Assembly: GCF_028330985.1 (NCBI RefSeq)
Contig: NZ_JAQMUE010000100.1
Location: 1-64,000, forward strand
Reading direction: 5' to 3'
From: Roseofilum reptotaenium CS-1145
GTDB taxonomy: Bacteria; Cyanobacteriota; Cyanobacteriia; Cyanobacteriales; Desertifilaceae
DNA: 64,000 nt
In this document: positions 6 to 7,233 of the stretch, in pieces
Layout: each line of letters opens with the position of its first letter
Position numbering within the stretch: the stretch's first letter is position 1
Notes under the pieces: model-generated
Database searches by the model: none
Seen by the model: only the letters and a program-made list of their open reading frames with translations
What the model was told of the DNA's origin: nothing
Program-made: the position numbers and the translations under genes

Positions 6-527
6 ATGGTCATATCCAATCATTTGGAAACTGAAAAACGGATAACGAGTGCGATCGCTCTAGGAAGTAACCTTGGTGACTCTCGCGCTACCCTAGAAAA
101 TGCCCTAAAAACGATTGACCAAACTCCTGGAATTACCATCAAAACCCATTCGAGTTGGTATAAGACTGCACCCATTGGCCCCTCACAACCGGATTATCTG
201 AATGGCTGTGCCCTGTTAGAAGTCCAACTCAGCCCTCACGAGTTACTCAAAACGCTGCTCAATATTGAAGACAAATTTGGCCGAGTCCGTCAAGAAAGGT
301 GGGGCGCGCGAACATTAGATTTAGATGTACTATTATTTGGCGATTTAATTCTAGAGACGACCGATCTGCAAATTCCCCATCCCCGGATGACTGAAAGAGC
401 ATTCGTGTTAGTCCCCTTGGCGGAAATTGCCCCAGAGTGGATCGAACCCGTTTCTGGGAAGGCAATTTCTCAACTGCTTGAAAAGGTAGACTCTTCTGGA
501 GTAAGGGGGTTTGAGCTGGAGTCATAG
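6..527 (+). CDS. folK: HPPK, 2-amino-4-hydroxy-6-hydroxymethyldihydropteridine diphosphokinase
   Basis: Cytoplasmic folate-pathway kinase that moves pyrophosphate from ATP to 6-hydroxymethyl-7,8-dihydropterin, making the substrate of dihydropteroate synthase. The 173-residue protein has the family hallmarks in order: LGSNLGDS near residue 20, the YKTAPIG strand near 50, the signature RWGARTLDLDVLLFGD near 98-113 with the paired aspartates that bind magnesium, and IPHPRMTERAFVLVPLAEI near 124. Length is normal for the family. Only five bases precede the ATG, so a start further upstream cannot be excluded. The next gene converges on it and lies at the end of a cluster containing a second pterin-binding-fold protein, which may be more than chance. 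Confidence 0.95.
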   Translation: MVISNHLETEKRITSAIALGSNLGDSRATLENALKTIDQTPGITIKTHSSWYKTAPIGPSQPDYLNGCALLEVQLSPHELLKTLLNIEDKFGRVRQERWGARTLDLDVLLFGDLILETTDLQIPHPRMTERAFVLVPLAEIAPEWIEPVSGKAISQLLEKVDSSGVRGFELES

Positions 528-662: not shown

Positions 663-2879
663 CTATGACTCAACATCGATTTCAAAAAGATACCCATGTT
701 GTTCCACTGGCCAGTCACTTGCATACCAAGGTGCGAGAAAGTCTCCTCCTAGCCAAGGCACTACAGATGAGCAAGCAAACAATTTGGCACTGGAACTCAA
801 TTCACGATCAACAACACTTACACTCGTAATATTCATTACAGGTAAAATAATCTCTCTCTTCCTTGCTTGCAATTGGGGATCGATACAGACAATTTTACCG
901 CCAAACCAAAATGTGAGCCAAAGACGACCTGCCCTATCTACAGCCAATCCATCAGGTACGCCTTCATTTTCATCAGCGACAATAAATTGGTAATGCTCAC
1001 GAATATCGGGTGGGTTAGCGTCAGTTCGATCTAAGTCGAAGGTAAAAACATGAACCGTGCGTTCCAAACTATCTAAAACGTAGAGCGATCGCCCATCTGG
1101 TGATATTCCCATGCCATTAGCATAGCCTAGTCCGCTAAAAACTTCTTGAACTTGCCCCTGGAGATTACATCCTAGCAGTGCCCCTTTTTCCCCGATTCCT
1201 CTCTCATTGTCATCGATAGTGTTGAACCAGATGTATCCAGTTGAGTCAATAACCACATCATTACAAACCAATGGTCTGCCCTGATATGCTTGGACAATAG
1301 GTACTAGATCTTGGGTATTGACATTCCATTCTACTAGTCCTAACTCTCCAGACAATATGACAGTTCCCTTACTAGATACTGCCAGACCATAAAATGCACT
1401 CGGTAATGGGAACCGTTGCACTTCGCGGGTCGTTAAGGATAGTTGAACGAGCTGAAGATTACCGTAGTCCAGACAAAATAATTGATTACGTCTAGAGTCA
1501 TAGCAAAGTCCCTCACCACCCTGGAGATCGCACTCTGGCACCACGCTAATTTTATAGTTTGGTGAGCGTCGTTCTAGCAGTAGTGCATTGCGTAGATGCT
1601 CCCCATAAAACTGTAAGGCATCTCGATTCTTACCCATAAGGTTGAGTTCTGCCAGTGGGCTGGGATGATAGTAGGTATCTTGAATTTGCTCTGTTGGTTC
1701 GCAATTAAACGTGATCAATTGCTCGCAATTGAGCGTGTGTTGAGCGAGGCTAAAATCAAACAACGCTGACGCGAGACCACTTTTATAAGTTGATAGATAC
1801 AATCGAATACTGGTGGGTATGTGTTCTACTGATGTCTGTTTAGGAATCTGGGGACAAATTCCCTGGGCTAATATTAGCGCTGCTTTGGGTAAATTAAAGT
1901 TAAGACTCTCCTGGTACAAAAAGCCAAATGTGGCACTCATACGAGCATTCATTTCAATCAAGATCGGAGAACTTTGGTCTTGAATCCAAAATTCAGCGCT
2001 GAAAAAGCTATTGTTCAAACCGCTATCTTGAATAAAATTAGCGACTCGCTGATAAATAGATTTTTGTTGTGCCTGAGTCACTTGAGAGGGAAAAGCATAA
2101 CAATCTACCGATCCATCTTGTGCTTCCACAGTATCTACTAAACCCAAAAAATGAACCTCTCCTTTATAGACAAATCCATCACAGGTTAAAGGTTGACCAG
2201 AAATTAGCTCTTCGACTAAAAGTGGCACTTGAGACGTTACAGCTATGGGGTATTTTGTGCCATCAACAAATTCTTGGAATAAGTTTTGATACATTTGCCA
2301 CCACGGTTGGTAAGAGCTGGCAAGTTCTTGACATACTTGTTCTAATCGTTCAGGTTGCTCTACTTTTGCACAAAACATTCCGTAACTTGAACAAACTGGT
2401 TTCACAAACACGGGAAACTTCAGTTGATTTACAATATCCTTGTCAATTAATATCTCGGTTTTATTGGCCAGATGTACAACACTATAGCTGGGGGGATATG
2501 AGTCGATTTTACGAGCATAAAACTTATGAAAACAGTTGAGTATACCTTCTATAGAAGGGCCAAAAAGATTCAGGCTTTGACAAACTACGGCCGCCACTAA
2601 ATTGGCGATATCAAAGCTATAGTAAACAAACTCGATCTGGTGAGCTTGGGCATAAGCAATTGCATCTTGGCAAAAGGCAACTAAATCGGCTTCACCTTTA
2701 AGTTTAGGTGGCGTAGTTTGTATACATGAATACTCTAAACAATGAAAGCAATAGACAAAGAAATCAGGGCTAGAAAATAATTGTTTCTCATCTTGAGATG
2801 GACATAACACCAATACTGGGATGAGTTTATCGGCTGAATTATTGGTCTGGATTACAGTTACTGTTGCTACTTTGAGCAT
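663..2879 (-). CDS. ATP-grasp ligase fused to SMP-30/gluconolactonase-type beta-propeller
   Basis: A two-domain protein of 738 residues. Residues about 10-430 form an ATP-grasp ligase of the D-Ala-D-Ala-ligase/carboxylate-amine ligase type: FVKPVCSS supplies the nucleotide lysine, VEELISG follows, and ILIEMNAR carries the metal-binding Glu and Asn. Residues about 445-738 match the SMP-30/gluconolactonase propeller, with GGEGL, VCNDVV, YANGMGISPDG and VPDGLAVD holding the Glu, Asn and Asp expected as metal ligands. ATP-grasp enzymes join a carboxylate to an amine or thiol; SMP-30 enzymes open lactones. Having both in one chain suggests a ligation step tied to hydrolysis or lactone handling of a small molecule, which is inference. 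It is the last gene of the minus-strand run from 7233, with its own upstream palindrome. Confidence 0.8.
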   Translation of the reverse strand: MLKVATVTVIQTNNSADKLIPVLVLCPSQDEKQLFSSPDFFVYCFHCLEYSCIQTTPPKLKGEADLVAFCQDAIAYAQAHQIEFVYYSFDIANLVAAVVCQSLNLFGPSIEGILNCFHKFYARKIDSYPPSYSVVHLANKTEILIDKDIVNQLKFPVFVKPVCSSYGMFCAKVEQPERLEQVCQELASSYQPWWQMYQNLFQEFVDGTKYPIAVTSQVPLLVEELISGQPLTCDGFVYKGEVHFLGLVDTVEAQDGSVDCYAFPSQVTQAQQKSIYQRVANFIQDSGLNNSFFSAEFWIQDQSSPILIEMNARMSATFGFLYQESLNFNLPKAALILAQGICPQIPKQTSVEHIPTSIRLYLSTYKSGLASALFDFSLAQHTLNCEQLITFNCEPTEQIQDTYYHPSPLAELNLMGKNRDALQFYGEHLRNALLLERRSPNYKISVVPECDLQGGEGLCYDSRRNQLFCLDYGNLQLVQLSLTTREVQRFPLPSAFYGLAVSSKGTVILSGELGLVEWNVNTQDLVPIVQAYQGRPLVCNDVVIDSTGYIWFNTIDDNERGIGEKGALLGCNLQGQVQEVFSGLGYANGMGISPDGRSLYVLDSLERTVHVFTFDLDRTDANPPDIREHYQFIVADENEGVPDGLAVDRAGRLWLTFWFGGKIVCIDPQLQARKREIILPVMNITSVSVVDRELSSSAKLFACSSVVPWLGGDFLAPWYASDWPVEQHGYLFEIDVES

Positions 2880-2886
2880 AAATTTA

Positions 2887-2906
2887 TAGTATGAACTATC
2901 ATACTA
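2887..2906. promoter_or_regulatory. Perfect inverted repeat, candidate operator
   Basis: TAGTATGA-ACTA-TCATACTA is a perfect 8-bp inverted repeat with a 4-base spacer, 7 bases upstream of the ATP-grasp/SMP-30 start. Shorter repeats with the same ATACT/AGTAT half-sites occur at 5073-5085, 6831-6841 (CTATACTATAG) and 7262-7277, next to other genes of the cluster. A shared regulator binding site is possible, but AT-rich spacers give such matches by chance. Confidence 0.4.
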
Positions 2907-2969
2907 ATTTTACTTGATACTGCTACAGATTTTTTTGCTGATCGGTTGCTTCTAAAAATGAAAATATTA

Positions 2970-3662
2970 TTACCATAAGCGAAGTTTCGTTATCGCAATA
3001 TTGCCGGATAAACACACCTCAACATCTGTTCCCGGATCGGATGTGCGGTTGATATCATCTCCCACATAGAGATACCCATCCCCTTGCTTGACAAACTCAG
3101 TGAGTAGAGGACGGGTGCAGAGGGAACAAAAGACAAGTTCTGGGTCCGGTGTATCGGGTTCTAGGTGGGGAAAATTGACGGTCCATAAGGTTCCCGACTC
3201 AGGGGGTTGAGCGAATAAGTTTTCCAACACTTTTACTGTCCATTGTGTCGCCCTTTCCCAGTCTAGTTCTCTGTCACTTCTTTTGAAGTGAGACAAGGCG
3301 ATCGCTGGAAGACGATGTATTGTTGCCTCTCGGGCTGCCCCTATTGTCCCGGAAGGATAAATGTCTGAACCCATATTGCAGCCAGCATTAATCCCAGAGA
3401 CCACAAAGTGGATATTGTCGTAGAGATAGTTAACCCCGAGACGGACACAATCGGCTGGCGTACTCTCTACACTCACTTCAGTATCCGATCGCCATTCCAC
3501 TGGAATCACGGTGCGAATATTGACCTGATGACCACAGCCAGACTGGTGGTGTTTGGGCGCAACAACCACAATGTGATCGGTCGTTACTTGAGATAGGGCG
3601 CTGTGTAATGTACGAATGCCAGGAGCATCAATGCCATCGTCATTAGTTACTAAAAAGGTCAT
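2970..3662 (-). CDS. surE: SurE-family 5'/3'-nucleotidase (survival protein E)
   Basis: Metal-dependent phosphatase acting on nucleoside monophosphates and related phosphate esters. The N-terminus TNDDGIDAPGI carries the Asp-Asp metal site, and VVSGINAGCNMGSDIYPSGTIGAAREA (split here over residues about 85-112) is the family active-site region. Length 230 is ordinary. The ATG overlaps the stop codon of the small ORF at 3659-3760 in an ATGA arrangement, so translation is probably coupled. Lying between a methyltransferase and an ATP-grasp gene, it may dephosphorylate a pathway intermediate rather than serve general nucleotide repair; that is inference from position. Confidence 0.92.
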   Translation of the reverse strand: MTFLVTNDDGIDAPGIRTLHSALSQVTTDHIVVVAPKHHQSGCGHQVNIRTVIPVEWRSDTEVSVESTPADCVRLGVNYLYDNIHFVVSGINAGCNMGSDIYPSGTIGAAREATIHRLPAIALSHFKRSDRELDWERATQWTVKVLENLFAQPPESGTLWTVNFPHLEPDTPDPELVFCSLCTRPLLTEFVKQGDGYLYVGDDINRTSDPGTDVEVCLSGNIAITKLRLW

Positions 3663-3760
3663 AATCCTAACCCCCCTCTTTTGATGTAAGGTGCTAATTC
3701 CTCTGGAATTAAATTATCTTTTTCTTCTTCATGATGCAAAACATAAGGCTTAGAAATCAT
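3659..3760 (-). CDS. Tiny ORF (33 aa) overlapping surE; unknown
   Basis: ATG at 3760-3758, stop TGA at 3661-3659 overlapping the surE start as ATGA. The peptide begins MISKPYVLHHEEE and ends PEELAPYIKRGGLGL. I do not recognise it. Its start overlaps the end of another small ORF (3750-3875) in a different frame by 11 bases. A +1 shift at TTC-TAA (3755-3750) would join both into one protein of about 71 residues, so this could be the C-terminal half of a frameshifted small gene, or a separate coupled peptide. The tight overlaps on both sides are the main reason to believe it is coding. Confidence 0.4.
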   Translation of the reverse strand: MISKPYVLHHEEEKDNLIPEELAPYIKRGGLGL

Positions 3761-3875
3761 CTCTATTATTTTTCACTAATCGCTTCAAGTAATCACCAAT
3801 TTTTTTCGACCTTAGAGTTTCAATCTGTCTAAATAGACGGTAATACAGCTCCCAAACCACTCCCTGAAAAATCAA
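3750..3875 (-). CDS. Tiny ORF (41 aa) overlapping methyltransferase stop; unknown
   Basis: A possible TTG start at 3875-3873 overlaps the methyltransferase stop as TTGA; the stop TAA is at 3752-3750. The peptide is basic and likely helical (segments WELYYRLFRQIETL and GDYLKRLVKNNRDDF). It fills exactly the gap between the methyltransferase and the next small ORF. It is not a family I know. It may be the N-terminal half of a 71-residue protein interrupted by a one-base frameshift, or use recoding at TTC-TAA-G. The start codon is uncertain, because the frame stays open some codons upstream inside the methyltransferase gene. Confidence 0.35.
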   Translation of the reverse strand: MIFQGVVWELYYRLFRQIETLRSKKIGDYLKRLVKNNRDDF

Positions 3876-5047
3876 TATCCATTCATATTTGTCGCGTCTA
3901 ACCACATTACTCCAAACAGGTCATGGCCCACACCATAGCCCGGTTGTTGACTTTCTTCCAATTGCTGCAATACTTGAGCTAGCATAAATTCGACTTTCTG
4001 TCTGCACAGATGTTGGTCTGAAATTTGTTGTACTTCTTTCTGGGCGACCGTTTTAAATCCTTGAACTTCTGGGGGCAAATCAACGGGTTCTATGGGCAAA
4101 GACTCGCCCAGTAGCGTTGCTGCTTCACTGACTAAACTATTCCACCAACCAGAAAATTTCCTAAAGAAATCCAATATATAATCGGGTGCCGATCCCAACT
4201 CAACTTGGAAGATTAACTGGCTCAATTCAGTTTCTTTCGAGGGATCGAGCAAACTATTAATGAGGTTACGATACTTAGGTAATTCTGGGTTAAATTGTCC
4301 CGTTGAAGTATGACGACCTACCATAATGGAGCGATCGAAAAACTTGAATTTCTCAACAGGGCAACCTACAGCATCAGCAGCTTGCTGCATGATCTCTCGC
4401 AACTGTTCATGGGCATAAAAACTCATCCATGTCGGTTCTGCATTTCCTTGGCTCTCGAAAAAGCTCATGCAGTAATCCCACCGGCTTTCTTTCCATTTGG
4501 GTGTCCACTCGATGCTGTACCGTCCTAATACATCTACAACCACTGCACACCGGGAGCGATTTTCACAAGCATTCTCCACAATTTTTTGTAGAGCTTGGTT
4601 TAGCTCATCGTGAGTCAGATGAGAGTAGGGAACGCCACAAGAAAGGTAAACATCAAAGGGTCGATGGAACTCCCTAGTCCGAATATCCGCACATTCAAAC
4701 CTCACATTACTGTGGTTGCTATATAGCTCATTGGCAGTTGCTACCATTGGGGCACTGATATCAACTCCCAGGTAATCTAGATCATAGCTGCTACCTAGTT
4801 CTGATTCCTCGGACAACAATGTTGACAGCAACAGGTATCCATCTCCTGTACCTGCGCCAACATCTAAAACTCTTAGTTTCTCTCCCTTTTCCTTGCTATA
4901 TGGCGCGATCGCATACTTAAACACTGAACGAGAAAATGGCTCTTCCCACTCAACTTTTACACCGTCACGACGACTTTTAGATAAGTAATGTTGAACCGCA
5001 TTGGTTTCGTGGTACAACGTCTCTATATGCTCTGAAGTTACTTTCAT
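3872..5047 (-). CDS. Class I SAM-dependent methyltransferase with extra C-terminal domain
   Basis: 391 residues. The Rossmann methyltransferase core spans about 55-185: RVLDVGAGTGDGYLLL is motif I, DYLGVDISAPMV binds the SAM ribose, and VRFECADIRT and FDVYLSCGVPYSHLT follow. Residues about 230-391 form a second region rich in helices without motifs I know, so the substrate cannot be read from sequence. The gene sits 18 bases after the dihydropteroate-synthase-like gene in the same direction, clearly in one operon. A role as a tailoring O-, N- or C-methyltransferase of the cluster product is inference. Confidence 0.8.
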   Translation of the reverse strand: MKVTSEHIETLYHETNAVQHYLSKSRRDGVKVEWEEPFSRSVFKYAIAPYSKEKGEKLRVLDVGAGTGDGYLLLSTLLSEESELGSSYDLDYLGVDISAPMVATANELYSNHSNVRFECADIRTREFHRPFDVYLSCGVPYSHLTHDELNQALQKIVENACENRSRCAVVVDVLGRYSIEWTPKWKESRWDYCMSFFESQGNAEPTWMSFYAHEQLREIMQQAADAVGCPVEKFKFFDRSIMVGRHTSTGQFNPELPKYRNLINSLLDPSKETELSQLIFQVELGSAPDYILDFFRKFSGWWNSLVSEAATLLGESLPIEPVDLPPEVQGFKTVAQKEVQQISDQHLCRQKVEFMLAQVLQQLEESQQPGYGVGHDLFGVMWLDATNMNGY

Positions 5048-5065
5048 TGCTACTTACCTCCATCT

Positions 5066-5971
5066 TTAAATTATACTTAAAGTATCTAAAACCGCTTTAA
5101 CTTTAGACACTTCATGGGTTCTCAGCAGATCGCTTTTTCCTAACGCAGCAAAAACTCCCGTGAGGACTTGAGAACTTCTGTATTCTTCCCCAAAAATTTC
5201 CAATGCAGTGGGAATTACATTGAAAACAGGAAACCCTAATTTCCTTAGTCTAAACGCATTTAAAAGACTGCTTATTTGATACCTTATCCGATTTGAAGCA
5301 TTTTGGGATTTATAGTATAAATTGGTGTATCCCAGCCCGACTGCTGGATCGATAAAAATTTTCCTGACTCCATGTTTTGTCGCAGTTTCGATCTCTTTTC
5401 CAAAATAATCGTATAGTAAATCAATCGGATCTTTGGTTACATCTAATTCAAACTCTCCTACATCTCTAGCATGTTTTCCTTGAATGTAACACAAAATAAT
5501 GGCCGCATCGAACTCAGCCACTATTCGATACATTTCTTCGCTATGCTCGATACCTGTAAAGTTAATGACGTTTGCGCCTGCCTTCAAACATTCCTCTGCC
5601 ACTTCTGGGTAATAGGTATCAACTGAACTTAAAATACCTGCTTTACTGAACCCTTGAATAATAGGCAGAAGTTGACTGATTTGTTTCAACCCATCAGCTC
5701 TCGCGGCATTTTTTGCAGTAGCTTCAGCTCCAATATCGATGATATCCGCACCTTGAGCGGTTAAGACGTTACCACGACGAATTGCTTGCTCGGTCGTATA
5801 ACAGATGCTTTTCTTGTACCAAGAATCAACAGAAAGATTAACGACTCCTAAGATCGCTTTTTCTGAATTAAACTTAAACTTCTTATGACCAATAGTGAAC
5901 TCTTCTACTTCAGCATCGTAGTCATCTTTATATTGGTCATAAATGGCGTAGATATCTGCGAGAGAAAACAC
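5066..5971 (-). CDS. Divergent dihydropteroate-synthase-like (pterin-binding fold) protein
   Basis: 301 residues with the TIM-barrel landmarks of dihydropteroate synthase (DHPS): ILGVVNLSVDSW (family ILGxLNVTPDSF), ADIIDIGAEAT (family GADIIDVGGEST), SVDTYYPEV, GANVINFTG, KIFIDPAVGLGYT and LLRTHEV. Pterin-contact residues Asn (VVN), Asp (SVD), Asn (VIN) and Asp (IDP) are kept, as are the Arg and His of RTHEV. The Arg of the GGESTRPGA loop is replaced (GAEATAKNA), and the SRK motif lysine is missing (FNVIPTALEIF). The protein probably binds a pterin or similar ring but is unlikely to be a normal DHPS. It may condense a pterin pyrophosphate with something other than p-aminobenzoate, or act as a corrinoid-type methyltransferase barrel; unproven. 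Confidence 0.75.
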   Translation of the reverse strand: MFSLADIYAIYDQYKDDYDAEVEEFTIGHKKFKFNSEKAILGVVNLSVDSWYKKSICYTTEQAIRRGNVLTAQGADIIDIGAEATAKNAARADGLKQISQLLPIIQGFSKAGILSSVDTYYPEVAEECLKAGANVINFTGIEHSEEMYRIVAEFDAAIILCYIQGKHARDVGEFELDVTKDPIDLLYDYFGKEIETATKHGVRKIFIDPAVGLGYTNLYYKSQNASNRIRYQISSLLNAFRLRKLGFPVFNVIPTALEIFGEEYRSSQVLTGVFAALGKSDLLRTHEVSKVKAVLDTLSII

Positions 5972-6031
5972 CTTTAACCTCCGTTTATTGTCTGCTTTGT
6001 GTTGTGAATTTACTTGATCAGGTCCCGACTA

Positions 6032-6754
6032 TTACAACCGCAAACCCCCCGCAACTTCTAAATTTTGTCCAGTAATGTAATCGGCTTCAGGACTGATAAA
6101 GAAACCTACTGCATCGCTTACTTCTTTTAAGGTTGCAGGTCGTTTTGTTGGGAGCAGTGGGATACTTTCCTCTAAACCAATAGAATTTTCTGCGACTCCT
6201 GGAGAAATAACATTGACGGTAATGTTGTCTTCAATCAACTCTACTGCCAGGGATTTAGTATAGACAATAATACCCGTTTTGGCAATTCTATAGACAGGAT
6301 TTATACGATCTGCTATCACATTTTGGGCACTAGCAAATGCAAAGTTAATGATCCGTCCCCAACCTCCTGCCTTGAGATAGGGAATTGCGGTTTGATTAAT
6401 ATAGAACGCGCTATGGAGGTTTGAATTAAATATTTGATGCCATTCCTCTATAGAGACCTGGCTAATTTGTTTTTCCAAATAGTCACCCACATTATTGACA
6501 ACTACTGATAAGCCTCCAAGTTGTTGCGCTGCCGTTTCGACGAGAGACTTAGCTTGTTCTAGTTGGGTGACATCTGCTTGCAGGGCAATCGATTTTACGC
6601 CGTAGGTAGCAGCAGCTTCTTGACTCACTTGTTGAGCGACTTCTGCACTTTTATTATAATGAAATGCAACATCAAATCCTTTACTTGCAAGATCTAGAGC
6701 GATCGCCCGTCCTATTCCCACTGCTGATCCGGTTACCAGAGCCTTTTTTAACAT
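6032..6754 (-). CDS. Short-chain dehydrogenase/reductase (FabG / pteridine-reductase type)
   Basis: 240-residue classical SDR. TGSAVGIGRAIA near residue 8 is the NAD(P)-binding glycine motif, VVNNVGD the structural NNAG variant, and FASAQ with YRIAKTG supplies the Ser-Tyr-Lys catalytic set. The C-terminus (SPEADYITGQNLEVAGG) is typical of FabG-like reductases. Bacterial FolM and trypanosomatid PTR1, which reduce pterins, are members of this superfamily, so given the DHPS-like neighbour a pterin or pathway ketone reductase is a reasonable guess, but sequence alone does not decide the substrate. It lies 60 bases upstream of the DHPS-like gene in the same direction. Confidence 0.85.
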   Translation of the reverse strand: MLKKALVTGSAVGIGRAIALDLASKGFDVAFHYNKSAEVAQQVSQEAAATYGVKSIALQADVTQLEQAKSLVETAAQQLGGLSVVVNNVGDYLEKQISQVSIEEWHQIFNSNLHSAFYINQTAIPYLKAGGWGRIINFAFASAQNVIADRINPVYRIAKTGIIVYTKSLAVELIEDNITVNVISPGVAENSIGLEESIPLLPTKRPATLKEVSDAVGFFISPEADYITGQNLEVAGGLRL

Positions 6755-6843
6755 GATCTTCCGATCCTCATGAACTGAAAATATGATTTGATTGAGACAA
6801 ACGATATAACTTTACCATGTCTTAGGTAAACTATACTATAGGC

Positions 6844-7233
6844 TTAGTGTGCTATGATTGCTTCTGCTTCAATCTCAACCAAAATTTTGGGATCAATTAA
6901 TCGACTTACTTCAACCATTGTGGTTACAGGTCGAATTTCTCTAAAAAACTCTCCATGAGCTTGCCCAACACTTTCCCAATCTTCAATACTGACAACATAT
7001 ATTCGTGTTCGTACTACGTCTTTTAGATTAGCTCCAGCCTTGTGAAGTATGGTTTCAATATTTCTTAGGGTTTGTACGGTTTGCGCATAAGCATCACCAG
7101 GACAAATAATCAGACCTTTTTCATTAGTTGGGGTCGTTCCTGCTATCCAGACTTGATTTCCAACCCGAACTGCACGTGAATATCCAACAATAGGTTCCCA
7201 AGGCGTTCCACTAGAAAAGTTTTCACGTTTCAC
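6844..7233 (-). CDS. Rid (YjgF/YER057c/UK114) family protein
   Basis: 129 residues, full length for the family: [34 protein letters not shown] and [19 protein letters not shown]. In RidA proper the last segment is preceded by an arginine (ARSCVE in E. coli, Arg105) that holds the imine substrate carboxylate. Here the matching stretch reads [10 protein letters not shown], without that arginine, so canonical 2-imino acid deaminase activity is doubtful. It belongs rather to the Arg-less Rid subgroups often found inside catabolic or biosynthetic clusters. It is the first gene of the minus-strand run. A palindrome (7262-7277) lies upstream, and a 90-base gap separates it from the SDR gene. Confidence 0.88.

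Follow-up and report, generated by a model that had tools for sequence, protein, structure and literature searches.

A recurrent cyanobacterial gene cluster built on a dihydropteroate synthase-like protein and a reductase points to a probable specialised pterin pathway

We analyzed a 64,000-nucleotide stretch of DNA from Roseofilum reptotaenium CS-1145 (contig NZ_JAQMUE010000100.1, positions 1 to 64,000; hereafter the window) and found near its start a gene cluster whose hallmark is a dihydropteroate synthase (DHPS)-like protein of 301 amino acids with an altered Pfam Pterin_bind barrel, which we call DHPSl (5066..5971, minus strand). Its core partner is a short-chain dehydrogenase/reductase (SDR; 6032..6754, minus strand), and a neighboring gene, folK (HPPK; 6..527, plus strand), encodes the maker of the presumed substrate. 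With moderate confidence, we favor the view that the cluster specifies a specialised pterin-conjugate pathway that would leave folate synthesis at the FolK product, its catalytic steps, substrates and product being putative; we are more confident of the reality of the cluster and of its link to pterins than of the chemistry. This view builds on gene families that recur in linkage, a separate DHPSl clade with a defined set of kept and lost residues, and a pairing between DHPSl subtype and methyltransferase. The molecule made is probably folate-like.

Recurrence of the cluster was assessed in a sample of 388 genomes of the order, 34 of which carry DHPSl at E <= 1e-40, and one locus was taken per genome. 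Open reading frames (ORFs) were called with our own ORF finder and grouped into families by single-linkage BLAST at 30% identity; six of the loci compared (L051, L052, L053, L054, L061 and L077) are shortened by contig ends. A member of the SDR family, which at this linkage also takes in other SDRs at loci without DHPSl, occurs at 33 of the 34 DHPSl loci. The SDR lies no more than 1 kb upstream of DHPSl and on the same strand in 32/34 loci, with a median gap of 74 bases, while at L056 it is found downstream and at L059 and L065 the SDR-DHPSl pair is tandemly duplicated as a unit. The SDR of the window scores above the cut-off of the NCBIfam TmpR model NF012208, which describes a dihydropteridine/dihydrofolate reductase (357.1 versus 325 bits). 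Counted by genome, DHPSl and an over-cut-off SDR occur together in 33 of the 388 genomes, DHPSl alone in 1, the SDR alone in 6 and neither in 348; Fisher tests of gene co-occurrence ignore shared ancestry. Such an SDR is therefore present in 39/388 genomes, and also in the control genomes Thermus composti and Deinobacterium chartae. Three of the six genomes with the SDR alone have folK near it, and two of these (G595 and G601) have a PTPS gene as well. The other three belong to one genus (g177; L087, L088 and L089), which holds the highest TmpR-model SDR scores in the order sample; there a NUDIX gene adjoins the SDR and no DHPSl match was found.

The gene folK is present at 27/34 DHPSl loci in three arrangements: downstream and convergent in 15, upstream and co-directional in 11, and upstream and opposed in 1. 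On the DHPSl tree, which holds 26 of the 27 folK loci (L053 has no row there), the arrangement has changed at least six times. We conclude that folK stays linked to DHPSl through rearrangement, which argues for a functional connection. The sequence-only reading of this DNA had allowed that the homologous genes might prove to be scattered, or the cluster to be one already known; for the core formed by DHPSl, the SDR and folK, we found neither. A literature search of titles and abstracts, which drew on the top matches for broad queries and covered few subscription papers, returned no description of this cluster, in agreement with the same reading, which had known of none.

DHPSl matches Pterin_bind at 108.1 bits (Pfam cut-off 25.5). 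Three Pterin_bind matches are present in the genome of the window, namely canonical folP, metH and DHPSl, and DHPSl is thus an extra paralogue beside canonical folP. The NCBIfam models that it matches are those for DHPS and Sul and a DHPS-like model, with scores that fall below the cut-off of the DHPS equivalog TIGR01496 (111.6 versus 162.6 bits) and far below those of Sul1-4 (best 61.9 bits, to Sul3, versus cut-offs of 475 to 600). A long, fully supported branch divides DHPSl from FolP in a tree built on 34 rows of the former and 30 of the latter; the FolP rows were chosen by their loop-1 motif, and a FolP that had lost this motif could not enter. Canonical FolP is also found in 30/34 DHPSl genomes (split in G492 into two pieces that lie in open frames of 307 amino acids). 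No canonical FolP was matched in G392 (L075, 94% complete), G461 (L066, 100% complete) or G655, and G399 (61% complete) has only FolP-type fragments that could not be assigned. In G461 and G392, DHPSl may serve folate synthesis, or the assembly may simply have missed folP. In a phylum sample of 386 genomes, whose share from outside the order is unstated, DHPSl occurs in five, all from the same order. Named relatives that carry it are Prochloron didemni, Hormoscilla, Okeania, Oscillatoria and a UBA cyanobacterium, and their seven loci have the SDR in 7/7 and a folK match in 6/7.

For the comparison of residues, we take the DHPSl positions to have the roles of their counterparts in two published DHPS enzymes; published numbering was transferred by motif position, with neither reference enzyme in the alignment. 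In the first, that of Burkholderia cenocepacia, Asn and Asp residues contact the pterin ring and an Arg stacks on it, and in the SRKS segment the Lys donates to pterin O4/N5 and the Ser binds the carboxylate of p-aminobenzoate (pABA) (PMC3098144). For the second, loss of diphosphate is reported to leave a pterin carbocation that is attacked by the amine, while loops 1 and 2 contribute to the binding site for pABA (PMC10328974). Set against 30 FolP proteins from the same genome set, DHPSl keeps N45, D79, N137 and D208 in 34/34 and the C-terminal Arg/His, R284 and H286, in 97%, and position D118 is Asp in 5 and Glu in 29. Loop 1 is altered from TPDSFSDGG to a segment that begins SxDSWY, the loop-2 Arg position holds L, A, V or S in 33/34, the SRKS Lys position is Ala in 31, Gly in 2 and Ser in 1, and the SRKS Ser position is Glu in all 34. 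This pattern suggests that the electrophile side of the enzyme has been largely kept and the nucleophile side replaced. DHPSl therefore resembles FolP and Sul in its Pterin_bind fold family, in most pterin-ring residues, in the C-terminal R-x-H and in having folK nearby, and differs from them in forming a separate clade under the DHPS and Sul cut-offs and in having lost loop 1, the loop-2 Arg and the SRKS Lys and Ser; it also differs from FolP in that a canonical FolP coexists with it in most genomes. A sulfonamide- or trimethoprim-type resistance cassette was considered and rejected, given the distance of DHPSl from the Sul models and the loss of the pABA-side residues.

The same residues bear on an alternative in which DHPSl would bind tetrahydropterin made by the SDR without any diphosphate chemistry, for methyl transfer, binding or sensing, and would stand nearer to the pterin domain of MetH than to DHPS. 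The SRKS-type Lys that contacts O4/N5 is replaced in MetH of the window's genome as it is in DHPSl, and the near-constant partner of DHPSl is a reductase, both of which favor such a role. However, MetH of this genome is without the C-terminal Arg/His that DHPSl keeps, the NCBIfam matches of DHPSl are to DHPS-type models, and DHPSl is linked to folK, and we consider this alternative unlikely.

We prefer to see DHPSl as part of a pterin-conjugate pathway, in which the SDR would act on the pterin ring. The motif TGX3RXG has been described as specific to pteridine reductases (PMC13259868). The cluster SDR contains YX3K, and it resembles the pteridine reductases PruA and FolM (PMC13259868) as an SDR that would act on dihydropterins; unlike PTR1, FolM and PruA, the SDRs of the cyanobacterial clusters carry TGX3GXG, and the model they match is TmpR. 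Because a soil pteridine reductase has been reported to give trimethoprim resistance (PMC8066302), the TmpR label by itself says little about the role of the SDR here.

A relative from outside the cyanobacteria bears on this point. A plasmid of Roseibium porphyridii carries a DHPSl homologue (33.7% identity, E 7e-52) in the row folB (annotated as dihydroneopterin aldolase), DHPSl, SDR. Read from its translation, this homologue has the DHPSl hallmark segments; when placed in a tree with DHPSl and six FolP it falls, on a long branch, on the DHPSl side, and it scores 127.4 bits on TIGR01496, below the 162.6 cut-off. Its partner SDR has the TGX3RXG motif, and all NCBIfam matches shown for the SDR and the aldolase are below cut-off. 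The presence in the same place of a pteridine-reductase-like SDR of another subfamily supports ring reduction as a likely part of the pathway. A plasmid search with the Roseibium DHPSl protein found only itself.

It is also conceivable that the cluster is a back-up folate branch, with DHPSl as a second dihydropteroate synthase and the SDR as a substitute dihydrofolate reductase. Two folP or two folK genes are known in some organisms (PMC1971073), no FolA match was found in any of the 34 DHPSl genomes, the SDR is over the TmpR cut-off, and 4/34 genomes are without a clear FolP. At the FolA threshold used (E <= 1e-15), at which the control Synechococcus elongatus (matched at 0.001) was lost too, so that weak FolA may be missed, 359/388 genomes have no FolA match, yet an over-cut-off SDR is present in only 39; most of the genomes without a FolA match are also without the SDR, and the SDR was rejected as a general FolA substitute. 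Moreover, FolP is retained in 30/34 DHPSl genomes, the pABA-side residues are gone from DHPSl, and the subtype-specific methyltransferases described below have no place in known folate synthesis. A back-up folate role is therefore improbable for the cluster as a whole.

DHPSl falls into two subtypes, I and II, with different methyltransferases. By locus, 20 are type II and 14 are others, the latter including L053, which was later assigned to type II, and L054 (G399), whose DHPSl comes as two pieces with a stop and is unclassified as to subtype. An EgtD-like gene is present at 15/20 type II loci and 0/14 others; by genome, it is found in 19/34 with DHPSl and 0/46 without, and all 19 are type II (19/21, with G651/L053 included). 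The EgtD-like protein reaches 77.2 bits on Methyltransf_33 (cut-off 23) and only 67.4 versus 290.9 on the EgtD model TIGR03438. By these scores, we assign the type II methyltransferase to the EgtD superfamily only, and not to EgtD (histidine N-alpha-methyltransferase) itself. The window has, beside its type I DHPSl, a class-I methyltransferase with a long C-terminal region (3872..5047, minus strand; Pfam), of a family found at 0/20 type II loci and 7/14 others (7/34 overall), and by genome in 12/34 with DHPSl and 2/46 without (G595, and a 31% match in G396). The AlphaFold model of this methyltransferase was too poor to use (pLDDT 50.8).

A SurE-type phosphatase (2970..3662, minus strand; Pfam and NCBIfam) follows the methyltransferase in the window. 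SurE is found at 6/34 loci, after the window-type methyltransferase, and at 0/20 type II loci; the gap between the two genes is 44 bases in two relatives and 220 in a third, and at L070 a HAD-type hydrolase takes the place of SurE, 23 bases downstream of the methyltransferase. Three SurE matches in the window's genome mark the cluster copy as a paralogue. The placement of SurE or a HAD hydrolase after the methyltransferase suggests that a phosphate must be removed in the pathway.

Two gene neighborhoods stand beside these observations. In G609, G589 and G320 (L067, L068 and L081), which belong to one family, panD, an N-methyltransferase-like gene and a gamma-butyrobetaine-dioxygenase-like gene lie beside folK, and in two of the three genomes they sit between folK and the SDR; the trio looks like beta-alanine betaine chemistry beside pterin genes. 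At L045 (12976-15324), an ABC transporter ATPase and an OpuAC/permease fusion of the glycine-betaine type follow directly after a type II cluster. Together with the EgtD-superfamily enzyme of type II, these betaine-type genes and the transporter hint at products that would be folate-like molecules in which another amine takes the place of pABA and then undergoes N-methylation, perhaps as far as a quaternary (betaine-like) group, a proposal that we put forward only as a speculative one.

Other families recur around DHPSl: among the 34 loci, NUDIX is found at 19, PTPS at 12, thioredoxin-reductase-like and FolB proteins at 10 each and a MurL-like protein at 8. The PTPS genes suggest a further alternative, synthesis of a tetrahydrobiopterin-type compound or a pterin glycoside by PTPS and a reductase, as for biopterin glucoside or cyanopterin, with DHPSl incidental. 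Cyanobacteria are reported to make 6-hydroxymethylpterin and biopterin glycosides (PMC3546692), and G595 and G601 have the SDR with folK and PTPS and no DHPSl match. The constant partner, however, is DHPSl and not PTPS, the recurrent PTPS is over the QueD cut-off, and no glycosyltransferase is among the 15 families present in at least 4 of the 34 loci (of these, the MurL-like family and family 13 match nothing in Pfam). Cyanopterin and the biopterin glycosides share with our proposal a cyanobacterial origin, the tetrahydro form and, for cyanopterin, a 6-hydroxymethylpterin base; they differ in the sugars attached by glycosyltransferases, and the available text of PMC3546692 does not contain the word 'dihydropteroate'. 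We regard this alternative as very unlikely.

Of the published clusters found, the pepteridine locus of Photorhabdus luminescens is the nearest as far as it is described in the available text, and it likewise groups PTPS, a pteridine reductase and a pteridine pyrophosphokinase for a tetrahydropterin product (PMC5384830). It differs in having pyruvate-dehydrogenase-like parts and NRPS-like ones, the latter for the coupling, and neither 'dihydropteroate' nor 'methyltransferase' occurs in that text. An NRPS-like E2 fusion was found neither among the cluster genes of the window nor among the recurrent families. In the tetrahydromethanopterin pathway, a DHPS-like enzyme couples a phosphorylated partner other than pABA, and methylation and ligation follow; tetrahydromethanopterin is a cofactor of archaea and methylotrophs. 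Compared by description only, the logic proposed for the DHPSl cluster is similar.

We propose the following pathway. The folate enzymes of the cell, often encoded beside the cluster, would make 6-hydroxymethyl-7,8-dihydropterin diphosphate, which DHPSl would bind through pterin and diphosphate as DHPS does, expelling the diphosphate, so that a nucleophile other than pABA could attack the methylene carbon. The TmpR-type SDR would reduce the dihydropterin ring to the tetrahydropterin, before or after this coupling, and the subtype-specific methyltransferase (that of the window with type I, the EgtD-like one with type II) would methylate the appended group. In clusters with the window-type methyltransferase, SurE or the HAD-type enzyme would then take off a phosphate, and in the lineage of the window two accessory proteins, a Rid protein and an ATP-grasp/SMP-30 fusion, may add further modifications to the product. 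Few conjugated pterins are known, and those few, such as folate and methanopterin, are central; such a pathway, if it exists, would point to a pterin cofactor, signal or light screen not yet recognised. What the cluster offers is a DHPS paralogue with its pterin site mostly kept and its nucleophile side changed, which comes with a reductase and a methyltransferase of its own in cyanobacteria (Okeania, Hormoscilla and Prochloron among them) and is seen also on an alphaproteobacterial plasmid; the gene set is short and testable.

Several observations weigh against this pathway or parts of it. Of the 28 DHPSl genomes examined for folK copies (out of 34), 22 have a single one, which makes folK mostly the housekeeping gene. 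In the genus of the window, the cluster is flanked by a DUF218 gene and folK, and three genus-mates without DHPSl have other genes in this interval; folK linkage in this genus may partly reflect the site. The NUDIX protein matches the folate-pathway NUDIX model weakly (20.7 bits versus a cut-off of 103). The SDRs carry TGxxxGxG in 37/38 rows of the 34 loci, with the motif missing in one and the Arg of TGX3RXG in none. Several copies of the window's methyltransferase lie away from DHPSl, which makes its linkage look looser, and the four genomes without a clear FolP make a folate role for DHPSl possible in some. Loss of the O4/N5-contacting Lys could mean another ligand (for example, tetrahydropterin) or no catalysis, and the structure that AlphaFold predicted for DHPSl was too poor to use (pLDDT 37.1).

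In the window, the minus-strand run reads Rid (Rid/YjgF type, 6844..7233; Pfam Ribonuc_L-PSP), SDR, DHPSl, methyltransferase, SurE and the ATP-grasp and SMP-30/gluconolactonase-like fusion (663..2879; Pfam ATP-grasp_4 and SGL), with gaps of 89, 60, 18, 209 and 90 bases in that order. On the plus strand, folK stands tail to tail with this run, beside it and not part of it. All the genes that the sequence-only reading placed in this run are present at the positions it gave, on the minus strand, and belong to the families it named. It had also placed a modified pterin at this locus, and that inference is largely borne out by the recurrent DHPSl core with folK and other pterin genes nearby; the limits that it drew around the cluster are not. 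Its full gene set is not supported as one pathway, as Rid and the ATP-grasp/SMP-30 fusion are each found at 2/34 loci (the window and one close relative), the methyltransferase at 7/34 and SurE at 6/34, and the tiny ORFs are not conserved beyond the sister genome. The fusion and DHPSl, whose co-occurrence had been suggested as a check, are together at those 2/34 loci only, which places the suggested lactone and amide-ligation steps outside the recurrent core.

Comparison of the window with its sister (L004) gives dN/dS values of 0.08 for DHPSl, 0.10 for the methyltransferase, 0.11 for the SDR, 0.14 for SurE and 0.19 for folK, and 0.30 for the ATP-grasp fusion and 0.62 for Rid, the last from few substitutions. 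Because they are missing from the other 32 loci and are under weaker constraint, Rid and the ATP-grasp fusion appear to be lineage-specific accessories. An Rfam scan of the window gave nothing except one tRNA, and scans for promoters and terminators gave no more sites than in shuffled sequence. Of the tiny ORFs that had been noted in the 209-base gap, one of 33 amino acids (3659..3760, minus strand), which overlaps the start of surE by ATGA, is shared with the sister at 94% identity. The 33-amino-acid ORF occurs only in these two genomes among all loci compared and has no Pfam match; it was provisionally set aside as a gene. A 51-amino-acid ORF (3750-3905) has its match in the sister genome spread over two reading frames and was rejected as a gene because it is frameshifted there.

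The genome of the window (G000) has a second folK on another contig (C29, L058), with 96.2% nucleotide identity over 503 bases. Both copies are identical in their first 141 bases, and the shared sequence starts from one and the same base on both contigs; the assembly is probably broken here by a repeat that lies upstream of folK.

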